Assembly (NCBI RefSeq): GCF_001720465.1
Contig: NZ_CP017113.1
Location: 992,001 to 1,056,000, forward strand
DNA from: Porphyrobacter sp. LM 6
GTDB lineage: Bacteria; Pseudomonadota; Alphaproteobacteria; Sphingomonadales; Sphingomonadaceae
DNA: 64,000 bases
Reading direction: 5' to 3'
The notes under the pieces are model-generated. The model did not search any database and had not been told where the DNA came from. It was given only the letters and a program-made list of their open reading frames with translations. The position numbers were made by a program, and so were the translations under genes. Every line of letters starts with the position of its first letter. Within the stretch, counting starts at the first letter, position 1. Shown here in pieces: positions 18,673 to 35,707 of this stretch.

Positions 18673-20772
18673 TCAAGCCACGTGAAAGATGTCAACCTTG
18701 GTTTCGAGGCACTTACGCAACGTGAGGTCGTTTGCGCCTACTTCAAACCAGCTGCTGGGCTTTTGATAAAAGTCGAGACCCCGCCCGATTTTGATATGCC
18801 ATCCATTATCGATCCTGATCTCTCGGTCATGTAGGTTGGGGTTCAGGGAAATGTTGAGAACAACGTCGGCCTCGATCAGGCTCTGTTTCAGATCCTCGAG
18901 CTTCTCGGAAATGTCTGCCAGCTGAGTGCTGTCATCATAACTGCTGATCAAGTTGATGGTCTTGATCGATCCAGGTTTCAGGCAAGTCTCACAAAATCTA
19001 ACGAAATTTTGGATCTGATGCTGCATCCGGATGTAGGGGTCTTCGATTGTGACCTCCTTCGCTCCTTGCAGGTATGGCCCCATGATCGTCTCATAGCTAT
19101 GGCCACTATCACCATAGAGAATAGTGAAGTGCTGCTCCTTAAGCCGGTTGATCGATTGGTCCGGCCGTGGGGGCGCACTTTCATCTGACGATGCAGAGAT
19201 AGGCTGTAAGGGAGGAGCGTCGTGAGCCCTAATAGGCTCGTCGCCGCTCGGTGTGGTAATTGCCACATTGCCCTTATCCAGCTGCCGTCGAGCCGGCTGC
19301 TGGGTGGCCAATGCATCTTTCGACTCAGGGCAAAAAACAACGACCTCCGTGCCGTCGGCGGTCACATAGGAGAGGTTGATCCGAGCGAATTCGTCGTCCG
19401 GCTTCCGCTTGTTCATCTGCTCCTTGACACGGCGGCGGCACTCGACGGCATATTCGACATATTCTGCGAAATCTTGCTCACTAGCGGCGCCATCAGGGTG
19501 AAGGATTTTCAGAAACGCTGCGACGGTTTTCTTGATCCCTTTCTCGTCCCGACCCTCAATGTCCTTGCCTAGCCGAATTTGGCGGCTGACTTCCTCATAA
19601 CGGTTGGTGTGCTTAAACTGATAATGAAAAGCCTCAGCGAGATAATCAGTGATGAAGCCATATCTCGAGGTCAGAAACTCACTACTGTTTTTCGGCATCT
19701 CCCAACCCGGGATATATGCCGCAAAGCGATCCATGACTGCCAAATCCAGCTCTGGAGGCAGGGGCTGAAACAGATCATACTCTGTCGAGTGGACCACCTG
19801 AGAGACGGAAAGGTCGATGTTGCCGACAAAGCTCAAGCTCGCATCTGCAATCACCTCTGCTCCCCTCGAGAAGCGACCATTCGCCATGAAGTCTTTCATG
19901 ATTTGAATGGTGTCTGGATCGCGAACCTTGATGCCGCCAACCTCGTCAAATGCGACTGTATCCCAATATCCTACCAGGCCAACTTTCCGACGCGCGTTGT
20001 TGTAAAAAAGCGTGGCCTTGGTCGCCTGTCCGCCAGATATCAAAGTGGCATAAGGCGAGAATTCACTGAAGAAATATGACTTCCCAGTGCCTCGCGGGCC
20101 AAGTTCAATGTAATTATAATTGGGTTCCACAAGTGATGCTAGGCGGGCGACGAAGTGGAACTTCACTCGCTGCGAGAGCTTGGATGGCTCAAGACCCACA
20201 GACCGCATAATCGCATCCAACCATTGATCCCGCGAGAAGGACTTCCGACCTTCAGCGTATTGCTCGAAGTCGAACCTCGAAAGCTGAATTGGACGCAGAT
20301 CTTCTATGTAGAATGCGTAGTTATCCTCATCAACTTCGTTATGGGCTAGAGTCACTTCAGCCCAAATACCGCCCTCCAGAAGGCGGTCGTTGTCTCTGTA
20401 GAACTTCTCGCCAACTGCTATCCGTTGAGAATTGAAGTTCTCGAGAGAAGCCCAATGTCGCTTCTCCTTTTCTACAAACCGGACATGGACCTTATCAATA
20501 AACCGGTGCTTCCCTTTTGTCGCCACTTTGGACTGCGCGGCATTGGCCTCATCAGGTCTGACATAATTATCTTGCAGTGTCGCAAGGACGGCTTCCATGC
20601 CGGCATCAATCTCCGCCTGGTCGTCACTGGCGCAGAAACGGGCGAGGAGGAATTCCAACACGAACGTAGGAACGTTGGTCCCTTTTTTGATCCGATGCAG
20701 AAGATCCTTTCGGACAACCTTACCGTCAAATGCGGCAATCAGCTGCCTGTCGAGTTCATCCAATTGGCTCAT
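18673..20772 (-). CDS. brxL: BrxL, BREX AAA+ (Lon/MCM-like) protein with C-terminal MITD1-like PLD-fold domain
   Basis: BrxL is the last component of BREX type 1 and is needed for phage exclusion. The 699-residue protein has an N-terminal BrxL domain and an AAA+ core with Walker A GPRGTGKS near residue 230 and Walker B-like TVAFDEVGG. A polar low-complexity linker (about 490-550) follows. The C-terminal 146 residues (554-699) read EVTIEDPYIR, LHDREIRIDNGWHIKIGRGL and CLETKVDIFH. These closely follow the C-terminal domain of human MITD1, a phospholipase-D-fold membrane binder, instead of a Lon S16 protease domain. The start overlaps the pglZ stop by ATGA; it is the promoter-distal gene of the operon. 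Confidence 0.92.
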   Translation of the reverse strand: MSQLDELDRQLIAAFDGKVVRKDLLHRIKKGTNVPTFVLEFLLARFCASDDQAEIDAGMEAVLATLQDNYVRPDEANAAQSKVATKGKHRFIDKVHVRFVEKEKRHWASLENFNSQRIAVGEKFYRDNDRLLEGGIWAEVTLAHNEVDEDNYAFYIEDLRPIQLSRFDFEQYAEGRKSFSRDQWLDAIMRSVGLEPSKLSQRVKFHFVARLASLVEPNYNYIELGPRGTGKSYFFSEFSPYATLISGGQATKATLFYNNARRKVGLVGYWDTVAFDEVGGIKVRDPDTIQIMKDFMANGRFSRGAEVIADASLSFVGNIDLSVSQVVHSTEYDLFQPLPPELDLAVMDRFAAYIPGWEMPKNSSEFLTSRYGFITDYLAEAFHYQFKHTNRYEEVSRQIRLGKDIEGRDEKGIKKTVAAFLKILHPDGAASEQDFAEYVEYAVECRRRVKEQMNKRKPDDEFARINLSYVTADGTEVVVFCPESKDALATQQPARRQLDKGNVAITTPSGDEPIRAHDAPPLQPISASSDESAPPRPDQSINRLKEQHFTILYGDSGHSYETIMGPYLQGAKEVTIEDPYIRMQHQIQNFVRFCETCLKPGSIKTINLISSYDDSTQLADISEKLEDLKQSLIEADVVLNISLNPNLHDREIRIDNGWHIKIGRGLDFYQKPSSWFEVGANDLTLRKCLETKVDIFHVA

Positions 20773-23297
20773 ACCGTGTAGTCCGTTTCCAAGGTGATGG
20801 CGCAGAAGCTAGCCAGCGTTGTGGGATTGAGCGCTTTGACGGTGAACTTTCCTTCGAAGTCAGCATCCATCCTCAAAGCGATCTGCTTGCTCTGCCCCGG
20901 CATTAAAGAAAGCGTCCGCGTGGCAGGATTTAGGTCACCGCCTGGCCTCGGCTCCCCGATCACATTGCCTTTAATATCCTGAGCTTCAATCAGCACTTCC
21001 ATCATAGTGTCTTGAGAGAACATATCGTCGGACGTTAATTTAATATCGATCACAGGTACGCGCGTTGTGATCCGCTTTGCTCCGTTCTTATATGAAATCT
21101 CGACTGTCACCTTGCCTGAAGCTATCTGATCATCGTCATCAAGGCGCATCAGCAGGACAGGAACGACAGCTTCGGCGAGCGAGGCTCCCCCATGGAAGTA
21201 GAGATGCCCCGATCGATAGGGCGCCATACTGCGGGGCATAGCAACCTGAGAGAAGTCACCCCTGATCCCAAGTTTTTCAGCAGCAACAACAGCATTATGA
21301 GCGTCTGCGTTTCCATCCCCCAGCATCAAGCGGTCATGGGCGTTTATGACCCAGTTACCTTGTGGCTTCATGGAGACATCGCCTGCTCCTGCCTGGGCAT
21401 TCAGGAAAAACCCATGATCGGTAACTATGACTGCCTCTTTGAAGCCCATTCCTCGAAGCTTGTGGAGGGCGACCCTAATCGTTTTTAACGTTGAAGGGAT
21501 AAGCCCCAGAGTGGTCTCCGGATTGCTCTCGAGCTGACTGTCAATCTCCGTGGACCGTAAAACGAGAAGATCCGTCGTCTCAGAAATTCTGGGCCTGCCG
21601 CGGACAAATTCGTTAAGCGGCATCTCTTGAAAACGGTCGCCAAACCTCTTTCTGAGCACATCCATGCGCTGGGCGACATTGCCTACGCGAACGTCACCCA
21701 GCTTCGGGACCATCGCGTCAGCTTCGAGAGCCAGGGATAAGTCGGCTCGGGCTCCTGGCAAAAGACTGGCCATGCCCACGAGTGTAATCGAGGGCAGTTG
21801 AGCGTAAGCAGCTTGCAACTCAACCGGACCATCCTCAGAAAGCATTTTTTCGAGCGCCACGCCCAGTTCATATCGCAAGGCGTCGATCATAAGATATGCT
21901 ACACGGCGCCCGCTTTCCTTTAGACGGTCAGCTAAGAGGCGGTCGAAGACGTCAGCGTTCGACAAGCGCCCCTGTGGCGGCCATCCAGCGGTTTCAACGT
22001 GCTTGACGAAGACGTTTTGCACTTTTTCGGCGAGTCGGCGATAACGCCCTCGTGCCTGATCAATAACAACTTCCATCAACCCATGTGTGTCAAGGAAGTC
22101 TCCGACGGCCTGTTCAAATTCTCGCTGCAACCGGTCCGCTTCGCGCAAACTCCCCAAATAAAAATCCAAGAGGTCTGACTGTGAACGAGCGTGATCTGGA
22201 AGCTGACGCTCGAAGTCATCGCAAGCTTCAATGAGGCTCAGGCCTGCACGTATAAGCTCCCACTGAGCTAGGCTTTCGCCCTTTCCCAACCATACAGAAT
22301 TCTTGTTTCGGGCCAGCATCCTTCGGGTTGCATCGGTATCGTTGGCAGTGATGCCATTGATCGCGGCATCGAGGAACGTTCGCTCCTCGAATGGAAACGT
22401 GTCGCGCTCACCAAGGTCATCGATCATGCTGCATTGCGCGGGAAGGTCTAGCTCCGTCTCGATGGTTTCTGCGCGCTCGATGTAAGTATTCCGGATGTTA
22501 GCATCGCCTCGGAGCCTGTTGCAGACATCTTCTATAACAGGCCTCGCCTCAGGCGATGCATGAGGAACGCCTTTAAGAGATTCCGGCAGGACGCCGGGAA
22601 GGTCGAAAACGAATTCGCTGAACAGAACGAAACGCCAAAGCTCGTCAGCAAGCGAAGTCCATGTCTTGCCACGCGTTTTGACCGACATGCCTAGTGTCGA
22701 TTGGACAAATTCTCGTGCTTCATCGGACCAACCATCCTGAGCCTTTAATGCTTCGTTCTGCGAGCTGGTTGGCGCTAACAAAGCGGTCAGAATTTCCCTC
22801 GCAGAGTCGACTTTCAGCACGGAGCGCAATTGAGGCCAGCTCGCGCCGCCGCCGATCGCATCGATTACCGAAAAGGCAGGGCCAGCAGCCGTACCCGCGA
22901 ACACACGACGCACTTCGGTAGCGTGATCCGGTTTGGCGCGAAGGCAAAGGCTCAGATAGTCATCACCATCATCATGCGGGAAAACAGCTCCGCCCTCCGC
23001 ATAAATAGCGAAAGGATCTACTTGCTTTTCCTCATCCGTCAGCGGAGGCTTTGTTGGAACATAGACCAAAACCTCATCAAAAGATCTTTGCGGCCGCCCG
23101 ATCTCGCGCAATGCCAGAATGGCGGCCAAGCGACTTTCGATGCTACTGTCGGATGCGTCGACGAAGCGAGTACGATCGTCAGCCATGCCAGCGCAAATTT
23201 GCTGATAACGCCGGGCGGGGTCGTAAACGACCAGGCAACCGGCACTCGACAGACGCGGCTTTAGAACATCGTCCCTGATGAAAGCGGTAATGCTCAT
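20769..23297 (-). CDS. pglZ: PglZ, BREX alkaline-phosphatase-fold protein (type A)
   Basis: PglZ is the signature BREX component, an alkaline-phosphatase-superfamily protein implicated in metal-dependent phosphodiesterase activity. The 842-residue protein has a long helical N-terminal half. The PglZ core contains the metal-binding motifs YLMIDALRYELG, PSITLVGMASLLPG and AVIVTDHGFFLN. The RSGHLYFHGGASLAEAVVPV motif comes near residue 720, and a C-terminal beta-rich region follows. It overlaps pglX upstream and brxL downstream by ATGA at both ends, so expression is translationally coupled. The frame is intact. Confidence 0.95.
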   Translation of the reverse strand: MSITAFIRDDVLKPRLSSAGCLVVYDPARRYQQICAGMADDRTRFVDASDSSIESRLAAILALREIGRPQRSFDEVLVYVPTKPPLTDEEKQVDPFAIYAEGGAVFPHDDGDDYLSLCLRAKPDHATEVRRVFAGTAAGPAFSVIDAIGGGASWPQLRSVLKVDSAREILTALLAPTSSQNEALKAQDGWSDEAREFVQSTLGMSVKTRGKTWTSLADELWRFVLFSEFVFDLPGVLPESLKGVPHASPEARPVIEDVCNRLRGDANIRNTYIERAETIETELDLPAQCSMIDDLGERDTFPFEERTFLDAAINGITANDTDATRRMLARNKNSVWLGKGESLAQWELIRAGLSLIEACDDFERQLPDHARSQSDLLDFYLGSLREADRLQREFEQAVGDFLDTHGLMEVVIDQARGRYRRLAEKVQNVFVKHVETAGWPPQGRLSNADVFDRLLADRLKESGRRVAYLMIDALRYELGVALEKMLSEDGPVELQAAYAQLPSITLVGMASLLPGARADLSLALEADAMVPKLGDVRVGNVAQRMDVLRKRFGDRFQEMPLNEFVRGRPRISETTDLLVLRSTEIDSQLESNPETTLGLIPSTLKTIRVALHKLRGMGFKEAVIVTDHGFFLNAQAGAGDVSMKPQGNWVINAHDRLMLGDGNADAHNAVVAAEKLGIRGDFSQVAMPRSMAPYRSGHLYFHGGASLAEAVVPVLLMRLDDDDQIASGKVTVEISYKNGAKRITTRVPVIDIKLTSDDMFSQDTMMEVLIEAQDIKGNVIGEPRPGGDLNPATRTLSLMPGQSKQIALRMDADFEGKFTVKALNPTTLASFCAITLETDYTV

Positions 23298-26200
23298 TCT
23301 GCGCCCTTTTTAAGCTTACCAGACTTTGGCGATCTTGGTTCAGGCTCAATGTAAAGCACCTCCAGGTCGTGCGCGATGGCTAATGACTTGTCGCTCTTGC
23401 ACTTTTCACGAACCCGGTCTGGCCAATACGCCATTGCCAGGCGCGCCCAATCGTATTCTCCCTTTTCCAGCTTGGCCCAGGTGTCCTTCAGGATCCTCTG
23501 CCACGGCTTGTGGTGGAACAGCTGCCATAGCGGGGCGGCGGTAATTTGGACGCCGTCGTTATGGTTCGGGCGGTAGGCCGGCGCGATCTGCAGCAGAGTG
23601 TCGCGCAGCTCGATCAGTTCCAGCTCAAGCGCCTGAAGCGTCTCAAGCGACTTTTCGTCGTCGCGTGAGCGGGCGGCACCCTTGTTGCGTAGCGCGTCCG
23701 CTTCACGATTAACCTGCTTCAGCTTCGGTTCCACAAAGTCGTTGACGGCACTGTAGAGTGTTTGGCTGGATATGCTCGGGTAATAGAGCCATAGCGTGTA
23801 GCTGCCCGAACTGGTTGATAGCGGCCAATAGATCGGGGCCTTGCGGCGGCTCTTGCTGTACTGCTTCAGGTGCAGGGGGAAGAAGTCGCGCTGCAGCCAG
23901 CGGCGGACTTCCCTGGGAACCTCGGCCTCGACGCCGGTAAGGACTTCTTCGATCAGCCGTGGCAGATCATGTGGGTGCCCTTGGTCGTCCACCAGGATGC
24001 CAATGTGTGCATGGAACGGTGCAGCGCCATCAGGCAGCATGCCGGGGCTTTTGGCGGGGAGCGGATCGAATGGGTCCGGCTCGGGTGGAGCTTCGCGCTC
24101 GCCTGTCGCAAGGCGCCAATCGAAGCGACCGCACGCAACGCCGACGGCCCAGCTAAGCAGGCCATCGGTCTGATCAATCACCTCAGGCGCATCATCGTCT
24201 TCGCTATCGTCTGTAACCTCAGATTTATCATCTGAACCATCATCCGCTGAACCGATTGGTCCTAGCGCGGCAAGCCGATCCTGGACGCTGAACCCGTAGA
24301 GGTCGAAAGCAATCTCGTCGATCTCAATCTGAATTTCGTCAAGTTTGGCTTCGATAAGTGAAGGATCGTAATCTCCAAGGCGCACCCGAATGGCAGACGG
24401 TAAACAAAAGGCGTGCGACGTTTCCTCGATGGTGTCGAGCGCGCGCTTATTGGACCATCCCGTCCGTGCAAGGCGCTCCAGCCGCTGAGCGGCAGAACTG
24501 TCGGGCAAAGCTAGAGGCATCTTCTTCAATATGCCCACTAAGAACTCTGGATAACCAAAGCGCCCCAGTGTTATCTTAAATATATAGTCAAAAGCGGTGC
24601 TATTGAACAACGCCAGGGACACGATTTGGTCACCATCAGGAAAGTATGCGAGGTAACCTCTCTGCGAAAAAAGGCAGTTGCTGGCAAGCGCCTGCGGGGC
24701 GAATTTTTTTGCTCGTGATGGCCAAGTGAGCCCTGGCTTCCTAAAGTATTTATCTGCGGTGTCAGCCAGCATCCATACGTTTGACCTGATCCCCCCCTTT
24801 CATTCAGATTATTTTTGATCTCGGCTCCCTCCGCTCCCCAATTCACAACAAGAAAGACATCCGCGTAGAACGGCGAGAACTTTCCTCCCTTTGCAAAGCC
24901 TGGCCACTTGTCATTGTTTGCCGATACTTCCCACCAAGCTCTGACGAAACGGAAATCATCTGCAGTTGCAAGGCCCTGCCTCACTACTCGACCATCGCGC
25001 TCAAAAGGCTGAAAGTTCTCAAACGTACTGCGAACTTGGTCGCTTACCCAGTAAGCAAACGGGGTTCCTGGAACGGCACGGAATGAGTCGGTATCCACAT
25101 TAAACGCTCGATTGTCGTCAGCGCCAGACTTAAGCGAAAAGCAAACTGAAAGAAGGGCACTCGACTTCTCTTCATCAGCCAGGAGGCGAAAAAATTCAGT
25201 CATCATTGCTTCTCCAGGACATAGGCGGCGGCTTCGACCATGGCGTCATCCATGACGCCTAGACCCAAATCAGCAACAACCACGGGGCGTGCAACACCCA
25301 AGACAATTTCTTCGCGCCACTTCTGGAAACTCGAGAGGAAGAAGCAAGTTCGCGAAGTAATCGCACCGATTTTTGCGCCCTTTCGCATTAGCTCCAGCCC
25401 GCGTTCAACGAAGACGGCAAGGAGGTCATTCTTACTTCGCGGAAACGCCTTTGCTAAGGCGGCCTTAGTGCTTATCGCTAGCTCGCCAAACGGAGGATTC
25501 ATAACGACCACATCAAACACCTCTCGGCAGTGGTCGATCATCCTCAGCCCCTGCAACGCATCCTCGGCGAACAGCCGCCCCTGATAGGTGGATCGCGCCG
25601 CACGTGCATAATCTGTCAATGCTTCACGAAGCCGCTCCTCGGCCTTCTGCCACTGCGCCATGTCTTCGGTGCGGAACAAGTTTCCATGCTCGCCAAAGAC
25701 CTTGCGGATCAGTGCCGGCAGCTCCTTTTCGACCTCAAGCAGCACTCCAAGTTCAGGCAAGCCCTTGAGCATGAACAGCGTCTGTTCGAAAAGCTCCGCA
25801 TCCAGGGGATCAAGTTCCGCCATGAACCGTTTGCGCAAGTCCACTTCGGCCGGTGGCGCGACAGCGGCTACAACTTGGCCCTGGCCCACTTGCGGCCGGT
25901 CCTTCGCCTTCACGCCCGCGTCATGCCAGGCCCGCTGTGCCCGCAGCCACAGCGCCAGTGAGGCGATCTGCGCCGCGCGTGGATCGATATCGACGCCGTA
26001 GATGTTGTGCTCAATGATCAGCCTCGGCACGTCGCGCAGAAAAGCATCGTGGTCGGCGTAAGTGTCAGCGAGCGACTTCAGATCAGGACTGCCGCCGGTT
26101 TCCCGGTCGAGTCCATCTGGACCATGGGCCTGCTCCCAATCCCAAGTCTCGCGATAGATCTCCTGAAACAAGTCGAAGGCATAGAGCCCGAAATGCATCG

Positions 26201-33552: not shown

Positions 33553-33954
33553 TCAGCTGCCCATCGGTTCCGACGAAAAATGCCGCCGCTGAGCTCCCCA
33601 TTCTAAGGGGAATGGGGCGGCTAGAACGGTCAGATCAATCCCGTCCCCTTGGCGCCCCTCAAGGATCGCATCGATGATGTCGGGGGCAAGCAGGGTCATG
33701 CGCATCACGCGCGTGAGATAGCTCATCCCGATCTTTTCCTTCTCTGCGAGTTCAGTGATCGAGGCATATGAGCCCTCCTCAAGCATCCGCTTCCAGCGGA
33801 ATGCTCGTGCCAGAGCCTTGAGCACGGTGTTGTCAGGCCGAGGCCGTTTCAGCTCCGAAGCTGGGGGAAGGATCATTTCCTTGCGTCCGCCGCGCTTGGT
33901 CAGTTTGAATGGTACGAAGACGGAGACAATTTTGGGTTCTTGGGTCGCCTTCAT
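33553..33954 (-). CDS. recombinase-cassette accessory protein, ParB/KorB-like helix-turn-helix
   Basis: The 133-residue protein has a basic N-terminus (VPFKLTKRGGRKEMILPP), then RAFRWKRMLEEGSYASITEL and AEKEKIGMSYLTRVMRMTLL, which resembles the helix-turn-helix used in ParB-like proteins. It ends LAAPFPLEWGAQRRHF. Its ATG overlaps the recombinase stop (ATGA). The same small protein commonly follows this recombinase in alphaproteobacteria, so it may be a DNA-binding accessory or directionality factor; that role is inference. Confidence 0.72.
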   Translation of the reverse strand: MKATQEPKIVSVFVPFKLTKRGGRKEMILPPASELKRPRPDNTVLKALARAFRWKRMLEEGSYASITELAEKEKIGMSYLTRVMRMTLLAPDIIDAILEGRQGDGIDLTVLAAPFPLEWGAQRRHFSSEPMGS

Positions 33955-35261
33955 GCAGCCGCCTCCAGGGCGGGTGCACACAACTCTCGGGCCAGGGCAC
34001 CAATGCCCTCGGTACGAAGCCGGACATCAAGGCCTTCGCTGCCGACTATGACTTTATCGACGATGATTTGAACAATCCGGGCCTGCTCGGCGGGAAATAG
34101 CTCATCCCACATCGGGTCCAGATCTCTCAGAGCCTGTCTCGCTTGGGCCTCGGTCAACGTCGGTGTGCTCCGCGTGGCCATCTTCCAAGCGCCAATGATG
34201 ACTTCAGGCTGACGGAATGCTGCCCGCAGTTGATCGACAACGGCGGCTTCGACCTCCGCAGCCGGAACCCTGCCGACATCACACGCTCCCGCACCGTTCC
34301 GAAGCAAGGTCTGGCTAATATAGTAGCGGTAGAGCTTTCCGTTCTTCAGTGTGTGCGTCGGAGAGAATGCCGCTCCATCTTGCCCCCAGATTAGCCCCTT
34401 CAGCATGGCGGGCGTGTTAGCGCGCGTGCGTCCGCCTCGAACCCGAGGGCTCTCCTTCAGGATAGAATGAACGGCATCCCAGAGCTCGGTGCTGATGATT
34501 GCCTCATGCTCGCCGGGGTACCGGTTCCCTTTGTGGACCACGTCGCCGATGTAGATTCGGTTGTTGAGCACGCGATACAGGAACCCCTTGGTGATGCGTT
34601 TGCCGTGGCGGGTCGTGATCCCTCGCTCCGCGAGCTCCCGCAGCAGATGCGTGCCCGAGCCAATCTCCCGGAACCGCTCGAAGATGTATTGGATCTTGGC
34701 GGCGCCAGACTTGTTGATCACAAGCTTGCGAGCTTTCACGTCATAGCCAAGCGGCGGCACCCCGCCCATGTACATGCCCTTAGCGCGGCTAGCGCGGAAC
34801 TTGTCGCGGATGCGCTCGGCGGTGACCTCGCGCTCAAATTGAGCGAAGGACAGAAGAACGTTGAGCGTGAGGCGGCCCATGCTGGTCGTCGTATTGAACG
34901 ACTGGGTGACCGATACAAACGTCACGTTGTTGCGCTCGAACACCTCGACCAGCTTGGCGAAGTCCATCAGTGAGCGTGACAGGCGGTCGATCTTGTAGAC
35001 CACGACCACGTCGACCAGCCCGTCCTCAATGTCGGAGAGAAGGCGCTGGATCGCTGGGCGGTCGAGAGTGCCGCCAGAGATGCCGCCATCGTCATACTGA
35101 TCGCGCACCTGGACCCAGCCTTCGGATCGCTGGCTGGCAATATAGGCCTCACAGGCCTCACGCTGGGCGTCGAGCGAGTTGAACTCTTGTTCGAGACCCT
35201 CTTCGGACGATTTGCGCGTATAGATCGCGCAGCGAAGCTTGCGGGTGATCTCGCTGCTCAT
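33951..35261 (-). CDS. large serine recombinase
   Basis: A site-specific serine recombinase of about 436 residues. The N-terminal resolvase domain starts CAIYTRKSSEEGLEQEFNSL, with the catalytic Ser in RKSS. It continues DGGISGGTLDRPAIQRLL, VVVYKIDRLSRSL and TLNVLLSFAQFEREVTAERI. A recombinase domain (GYDVKARKLVINKSGAAKI to GFLYRVLNNRIYIGDVVHKG) and a C-terminal DNA-binding region follow. ATG 35261 overlaps the DUF2924 stop (ATGA); a longer frame upstream is not supported. It could mobilise its own cassette or the larger island. No core-site repeats are visible. Confidence 0.92.
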   Translation of the reverse strand: MSSEITRKLRCAIYTRKSSEEGLEQEFNSLDAQREACEAYIASQRSEGWVQVRDQYDDGGISGGTLDRPAIQRLLSDIEDGLVDVVVVYKIDRLSRSLMDFAKLVEVFERNNVTFVSVTQSFNTTTSMGRLTLNVLLSFAQFEREVTAERIRDKFRASRAKGMYMGGVPPLGYDVKARKLVINKSGAAKIQYIFERFREIGSGTHLLRELAERGITTRHGKRITKGFLYRVLNNRIYIGDVVHKGNRYPGEHEAIISTELWDAVHSILKESPRVRGGRTRANTPAMLKGLIWGQDGAAFSPTHTLKNGKLYRYYISQTLLRNGAGACDVGRVPAAEVEAAVVDQLRAAFRQPEVIIGAWKMATRSTPTLTEAQARQALRDLDPMWDELFPAEQARIVQIIVDKVIVGSEGLDVRLRTEGIGALARELCAPALEAAA

Positions 35262-35707
35262 GCTGCCCTCCGCTTGTTCTTGAGGCCGAAGAAGACCCAG
35301 CCGTTCCAGCGTGAGCCGGTTATGGCGCGGGCAATGGCCGAAAGTGACTGGTAAGGACGACCTTGCCACTCAAAGCCATTGAGCGTGACCGTCACAGTGT
35401 GCTCGACGCCCTGCCATTCACGGACCAGACGCGTGCCTGCGATTGGTTTCAGGTCAGCTCGAATACTACGGACGGCGACGTTGCCGCCATCCAGTTGCTC
35501 GCCAAGGTCTTGAAGCCGTTTCACCGTCTCAGGTTTCAGGCCGCCATAAGCGAGCTCTTGGACGCGATAGGCCAGTCGGCTTTCCAGATAGCGCCTGTTA
35601 AATGGCGGCGGTTCGCTAGCGTAGATATCTCGCCATTGTTTCTTGAGATCGCCGATTGTGGCCGCTTTGATGGCGGCCAATCGAGCCAGCACGGGGTCGT
35701 GTTTCAT
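35258..35707 (-). CDS. DUF2924 protein of the recombinase cassette
   Basis: The 149-residue protein is a DUF2924 member: IGDLKKQWRDIYASEPPPFN, RRYLESRLAYRVQELAYGG, and GTRLVREWQGVEHTVTVTLN with WQGRPYQSLSAIARAITGS. The last block reads like a small DNA- or nucleic-acid-binding fold with RNWNGW-like Trp residues. DUF2924 genes typically precede serine recombinases in phage-like elements. It overlaps the recombinase start and the upstream gene by ATGA, forming one operon. Confidence 0.85.
   Translation of the reverse strand: MKHDPVLARLAAIKAATIGDLKKQWRDIYASEPPPFNRRYLESRLAYRVQELAYGGLKPETVKRLQDLGEQLDGGNVAVRSIRADLKPIAGTRLVREWQGVEHTVTVTLNGFEWQGRPYQSLSAIARAITGSRWNGWVFFGLKNKRRAA

Follow-up and report, generated by a model that had tools for sequence, protein, structure and literature searches.

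A BrxL protein from a Porphyrobacter BREX locus carries a MITD1-like domain, probably of the phospholipase D superfamily, in place of the Lon-like tail

The characterised BrxL protein used for comparison in this work is presumably that of Acinetobacter. BrxL has been described as a DNA-binding AAA+ ring that forms double rings on DNA, the rings being paired by a Lon-like C-terminal domain (PMC10164562), and the Lon-like tail lacks the catalytic dyad (PMC12839542). A second form of the protein, in which the tail is read as an HRD-endoDNase, is already in print. In 1030 of 2913 Type-1 BREX taxa with BrxL, an HKD-endoDNase whose motif reads HRD takes the place of the LonP domain and was proposed to act as an additional nuclease effector; an earlier report, Li et al. 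2025 (the Menshen paper), is cited there (PMC12839542). The terms MITD1, MIT_C and ESCRT are absent from the main text of that article. The mechanism by which BREX blocks phage DNA is still under study, a question on which a BrxL tail of nuclease type could shed light.

In this work, we describe a BrxL protein encoded in a window of 64,000 nucleotides from Porphyrobacter sp. LM 6, the window being the whole stretch of DNA that was analysed. Family models identify a complete Type-1-like BREX set, consisting of brxA, brxB, brxC, pglX (as three ORFs), pglZ and brxL (Table 1); the NCBIfam type-1 PglX and PglZ models match the window proteins below their cut-offs.

Table 1. Positions, in the window, of the BREX genes, the domains and motifs of BrxL, and a neighbouring recombinase gene.
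Feature	Position	Strand	Evidence or remark
brxL	18673..20772	-	699-aa ORF; Pfam BrxL_N, BrxL_ATPase and MIT_C
BrxL_N domain, residues 14-143	20344..20733	-	Pfam PF20442, E 2.1e-44
BrxL AAA+ ATPase domain, residues 154-466	19375..20313	-	Pfam PF13337, E 2.8e-120
Linker, residues 467-556	19105..19374	-	Gap between Pfam domains; without Pfam match
MIT_C (MITD1-like) domain, residues 557-697	18682..19104	-	Pfam PF16565, E 5e-50; MITD1 4a5z
DPYIR motif, residues 578-582	19027..19041	-	Y580 and R582 in 69/69 distinct BrxL tails
H-x-R-x4-D motif HDREIRID, residues 648-655	18808..18831	-	Aligned with H-x-K-x4-D of PLDc_2
RGLD motif, residues 664-667	18772..18783	-	In 69/69 distinct BrxL tails
pglZ, 842 aa	20769..23297	-	PADLOC PDLC02561, 1-842
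pglX second half, distal ORF, 492 aa	23294..24772	-	PADLOC PDLC02532, 145-626
pglX second half, proximal ORF, 211 aa	24571..25206	-	PADLOC PDLC02532, 1-139; relatives
pglX first half (methyltransferase core), 628 aa	25203..27089	-	PADLOC PDLC02527, 1-658, E 1.1e-279
brxC, 1208 aa	27092..30718	-	NCBIfam NF033441, E 1.6e-253
brxB, 191 aa	30749..31324	-	PADLOC PDLC02465, E 1.4e-108
brxA, 264 aa	31305..32099	-	PADLOC PDLC02445, E 1.2e-121
BrxE-family gene, 167 aa	32096..32599	-	NCBIfam NF033447, E 2.4e-47
WYL-domain protein, 301 aa	32596..33501	-	Pfam PF13280, E 3.7e-10
Large serine recombinase	33951-35369	-	Beside the BREX locus

Both the BrxL_N and the AAA+ ATPase domains were found by Pfam, which makes the protein a BrxL, and both are common to the Lon-tailed BrxL of PMC10164562. 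In contrast to that protein, whose C-terminal domain is Lon/RadA-like and pairs rings, the window BrxL ends in a MIT_C domain. The initial annotation had read three motifs in order in the last 146 residues (with the stop codon, 18673-19113, minus strand), namely EVTIEDPYIR, LHDREIRIDNGWHIKIGRGL and CLETKVDIFH, and had recognised in them a MITD1-like domain in the position of the Lon protease domain. The motifs are there, and the Pfam search that it had proposed matched MIT_C over its full length (profile positions 1-142 of 142), scoring 169.6 bits where the cut-off is 25. This is the single MIT_C match in the whole genome (one contig of 2,979,257 bases). Lon_C has no Pfam match in the window BrxL, whereas it scores over its cut-off in all three scanned BrxL proteins without MIT_C (L088, L094 and L096). 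The MIT domain is also without a Pfam match, and the N-terminus is BrxL_N, unlike that of MITD1 and ESCRT-associated proteins. The 90-residue linker is, by eye, partly rich in Pro, Ser and Ala, and the tail is acidic, with a net charge of -7 (-9 to -1 across the 47 tails of its group, defined below). The assignment of the tail to MIT_C is certain as a matter of sequence family. It is probably a domain of the PLD superfamily that occupies the position of the Lon-like tail found in other BrxL proteins.

As in the BrxL-HRD form of PMC12839542, a Lon-type domain is replaced here by what appears to be an HKD-type domain with K changed to R, PglZ is kept, and the system is Type-1-like. From the H-R-D motif and its position, we infer that the HRD tail of that article is the MIT_C tail, and the window BrxL, judged by the features described there, is a variant of an already described kind. 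The PADLOC BrxL model PDLC02508 spans residues 5-697, tail included (E 3e-287); the BrxL-MIT_C architecture was therefore already inside the 2023 PADLOC library.

Human MITD1 is a cytokinesis protein whose PLD-like fold binds membranes, an activity that it requires for abscission (PMC6015221). Identity between MITD1 and the window tail is 48.6% over 142 columns. When PDB chains were searched with phmmer up to E 10, 14 distinct sequences came back, headed by two of MITD1 (4a5z, E 5.8e-40; 2ymb, E 1.2e-39); the other 12 were designed or repeat proteins and chance matches, and the best non-MITD1 row, at 1.2e-5, was without any single stretch passing. A profile search of solved structures with the tail returned MITD1 and chance matches only, no solved PLD nuclease being matched by sequence. 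The C-terminal domain of MITD1 (4a5z, 2ymb) belongs to the same Pfam family and keeps H-x-R and RGLD as the window tail does, whereas N replaces the D of H-x-R-x4-D. It is joined to a MIT domain, while its counterpart in BrxL is joined to an AAA+ ring.

The relationship of the tail to the PLD superfamily was examined through a profile alignment between 81 MIT_C rows, MITD1 excluded, and 24 PLDc_2 rows. The latter had been selected for the H-x-K-x4-D pattern, which 25 of 30 loci contain, and one faulty row was then removed. In this alignment, LHDREIRIDNGW falls on DHSKLMVVDKRW and DPYI on TPYF of PLDc_2, with a score of 29.0, an E-value of 1.8e-5 for this one comparison and an hhalign probability of 54%. 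The best of 100 column shuffles scored 9.9 and the reversed profile 3.7; MIT_C against Lon tails gave 2.0, and Lon tails against PLDc_2 gave 3.9. A smaller, more diverse alignment (A3) kept the same register at a score of 23.4 and a probability of 22%. The hhalign probabilities are modest, and the contrast between the MIT_C-PLDc_2 score and the controls is clear, as far as profile comparison goes. In a Pfam scan of the tail alone, no PLD family other than MIT_C appeared up to E 0.05. The window tail appears to keep H and D of the PLD-superfamily H-x-K-x4-D, with K replaced by R, in HDREIRID. The initial annotation had also suspected an HKD-like motif and was right that there is one, but its choice, WHIKIGRGLD, is in the wrong register: IGRGLD aligns with GSSNWD of PLDc_2, after the motif.

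Conservation was assessed in 69 distinct BrxL tails among 79 rows, with 16 duplicate loci and two non-BrxL rows excluded. Divided by a script at 44% identity to the window tail, they fall into the group of the window, with 47 distinct tails (measured rows at least 48.6% identical to the window tail), and another BrxL group of 22 (measured rows 25.5-39.3% identical). Nine residues are invariant throughout: Y580, R582, Q586, H648, R664, G665, L666, D667 and R686. R650 is kept in 67 tails and is C in the other two, both from Tenacibaculum and one of them a gene fragment, and D655 is kept in 62, with N in six and S in one. N at this position in human MITD1 as well as in six BrxL tails means that D655 alone cannot separate active from inactive forms. 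Likewise, conservation alone is no proof of catalysis, since MITD1, a reported membrane tether, also keeps H, R and RGLD.

Based on sequence comparison, the tail is most likely a DNA phosphodiesterase, nicking or cutting DNA and coupled to the AAA+ ring of BrxL, a reading to which we assign a probability of roughly 0.58. It is favoured by the domain identity, the H-x-R-x4-D register, the near-invariance of H648, R650 and RGLD, the alternation with the Lon-like tail, and the weak relatives among DNA-targeting defence proteins described below. Against it stand the modest hhalign probabilities, the selection of the PLDc_2 rows by their motif, the Pfam and structure searches that matched no PLD family besides MIT_C and no solved PLD nuclease, the exceptions at D655 and R650, the conservation of H, R and RGLD in MITD1, and the net acidity of the tail. 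PLD nucleases with one motif per chain pair up. Two BrxL tails could pair in a similar way, joining two H-x-R motifs, and the paired motifs would attack DNA held or moved by the BrxL ring; the linker would let tails pair between subunits or between rings. H648 and R650 offer targets for a clear mutational test of such a nuclease-type tail.

In a rival explanation, the tail would be a catalytically silent PLD-fold scaffold, pairing BrxL subunits or rings and perhaps binding DNA without cutting it. A non-catalytic BrxL tail has precedent, because the Lon-like tail is without the catalytic dyad (PMC12839542) and pairs rings tail-to-tail (PMC10164562). D655 is lost in seven of the 69 tails, and the sections of PMC6015221 drawn on here mention no catalysis for MITD1, which keeps H and R. 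However, the retention of H648 and RGLD in every tail, and of R650 in nearly every one, across two highly divergent groups probably exceeds what pairing needs, and the NsnC-like and DruE-like weak relatives would have no Lon tail to replace. We consider the scaffold doubtful.

The weak relatives just mentioned are of two kinds. L120 and L121, from genomes of the group around L033 (see below), encode proteins of 309 and 320 aa that hold DPY and HDRYLI motifs and match MIT_C at 31.0 and 24.7 bits (33 and 26.7 in a second scan; cut-off 25) and the PADLOC NsnC model at 2.2e-9 and 8.3e-8. In NsnC, of the Menshen system as modelled by PADLOC, DPY and HDR follow each other as they do in the window tail. 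In contrast to the tail fused to BrxL, the NsnC-like proteins are separate and adjoin AAA_15-type ATPases; PADLOC places NsnB in the top three matches of these ATPases, though not first. Identity between the NsnC-like domains and the window tail is 20%. The second kind is the DruE-like helicase L122 (812-6952; 2047 aa; DruE match in PADLOC, 1.2e-181), whose C-terminus carries LHDRW and a weak MIT_C match that, at 17 bits (E 0.0059), stays under the cut-off of 25. The weak relatives of MIT_C seem to lie among DNA-targeting defence proteins, by links that are below or near the family cut-offs, and they favour a DNA role over membrane sensing. As a separate observation, type I restriction genes are also present at L120 and a RAMP gene at L121.

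The initial annotation had proposed that the tail brings BREX to the membrane, or senses lipid or phage entry. Such a lipid- or membrane-binding module draws on the 48.6% identity to MITD1, whose PLD-like fold binds membranes (PMC6015221), and on one plasmid-borne fusion from Thiodictyon (L055, 2619-5462), in which a dynamin-like protein (Dynamin_N, 2.8e-20) has a C-terminal MIT_C domain (2.7e-21) with HDRYVVCD, possibly a bacterial membrane use of the domain. Against it, the domain is found mostly on BrxL, which is a DNA-binding AAA+ ring (PMC10164562), and Pfam found no membrane-protein family over cut-off among the ten proteins scanned from the BREX locus. Among 398 genomes of the phylum, its own included, MIT_C matches occur in 11, seven of them over the cut-off, and all seven also belong to the 17 genomes with BrxL_ATPase over cut-off (18 match). 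In 292 genomes around that of a Lyngbya locus (L033; genome G398, included), 17 match and 13 exceed the cut-off, of which 11 are BrxL with full-length domains and two are weak (L074 and L075). The 246 genomes around that of an Actinomycetota locus (L037; genome G400, included) gave six matches, five over the cut-off and all five in BrxL. A search of genome contigs for close relatives of the tail yielded 42 loci, all 42 in frames with BrxL sequence, although in L008, L032 and L034 the frame holds only part of the BrxL region. Together, the register of the PLD motif, these 42 loci and the weak relatives in DNA-acting defence proteins leave membrane recruitment and lipid sensing unsupported, and we judge that role improbable; on these comparisons, a DNA-directed role appears the better reading.

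Plasmids give a similar picture. MIT_C was found in 24 of 72,556 plasmid records, 17 of them annotated brxL, which also speaks against a membrane role, and two proven to be otherwise, the dynamin-like protein and an IF2_N protein (L056). Five more are without the brxL label (H3, H5, H13, H18 and H19), of which H3 is the terminal part of a brxL split over several ORFs and H5 (L058) a fragment without annotation that follows pieces of a disrupted BrxL. A conjugative plasmid of Thioflavicoccus (L114, 7780-12456) carries PglZ and a MIT_C-tailed BrxL; no gene annotated BrxC lies within the 24 kb examined. Viral contigs held eight loci with relatives of the tail, seven with the BrxL region and the eighth (L113) a fragment. 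As to a phage origin, the tail matched none of 50,697 phage records and nothing in PHROGs. Matches below the MIT_C cut-off were seen in L077 and L087; L050-L053, L078 and L079, also below it, were not accepted as MIT_C, and their surroundings read, by eye, like those of ABC-transporter ATPases.

The two tails alternate within BrxL. The 17 genomes of the phylum divide into seven with the MIT_C tail and ten without it, three of the latter scanned for Lon_C and seven judged by similarity and a Lon-like motif (L089 by eye). The tail had initially been presented as a variant of BrxL; it is common, and the variant is a published one (PMC12839542). A tree of the BrxL ATPase with 39 rows (29 MIT_C, 10 Lon) needs two tail changes, although one change suffices in 4% of 200 bootstrap trees and the test does not reject a tree with all MIT_C forms in one group (p-AU 0.209). 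The 39 rows were taken from 84 by thinning near-copies and leaving out the long rows L084, L086 and L115; at an earlier step, L008, L032, L034, L054 and L058 were removed for covering too little of the ATPase, along with 16 duplicate loci.

The kinship with MITD1 is, at the level of sequence, the part for which no publication was found. No paper linking MITD1 with BREX, or MITD1 with prokaryotes and nuclease, was found in the literature searched, outside which most subscription journals lie. The window tail is closer to human MITD1 than to the tails of the other BrxL group, and therefore the eukaryotic domain may derive from phage defence. In a MIT_C tree, human MITD1 joins the group of the window and a Hymenobacter BrxL with support of 95/94, apart from the other BrxL group. 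The MITD1 branch, the one eukaryotic sequence included, is long, and the test does not reject joining it to the tails of the other BrxL group (p 0.174). A grouping of MITD1 with the dynamin and IF2_N rows, all three being non-BrxL, is rejected (p 0.0004). We tentatively suggest that the membrane-binding domain of eukaryotic MITD1 might go back to a nuclease-type BrxL tail of bacterial phage defence, within the group of the window. If so, a defence domain was turned into a cell-division part, MITD1 being an ESCRT partner in cytokinesis. The match suggests that a eukaryotic cytokinesis protein has its membrane-binding domain in common with a bacterial immune protein, and the kinship is at the same time a caution against inferring "membrane" from every MIT_C domain.

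Two further features of the locus were observed. The large serine recombinase beside it suggests a mobile island. A tRNA-Ser was considered as the attachment site and set aside, since the window contains no second copy of the 3' end of this tRNA and insertion at it is thus not shown. The other feature concerns pglX, whose second half is split between two ORFs that overlap and are read in different frames (24571-25206 and 23294-24772). Seven consecutive G on the minus strand (24791-24797) lie near the frame change and are possibly a slippage site or a phase switch; the window has two G/C runs of at least seven, this one among them. At about that place (60 bases each), one of 28 relatives' ORFs has a G run of at least six. 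Among L002-L043, which belong to this BrxL group, pglX is either one ORF (11 loci, with open frames of 1260-1336 aa) or two, the first halves being mostly 630-690 aa and the second halves mostly 640-740 aa long. The second halves diverge even in the close relative L002.
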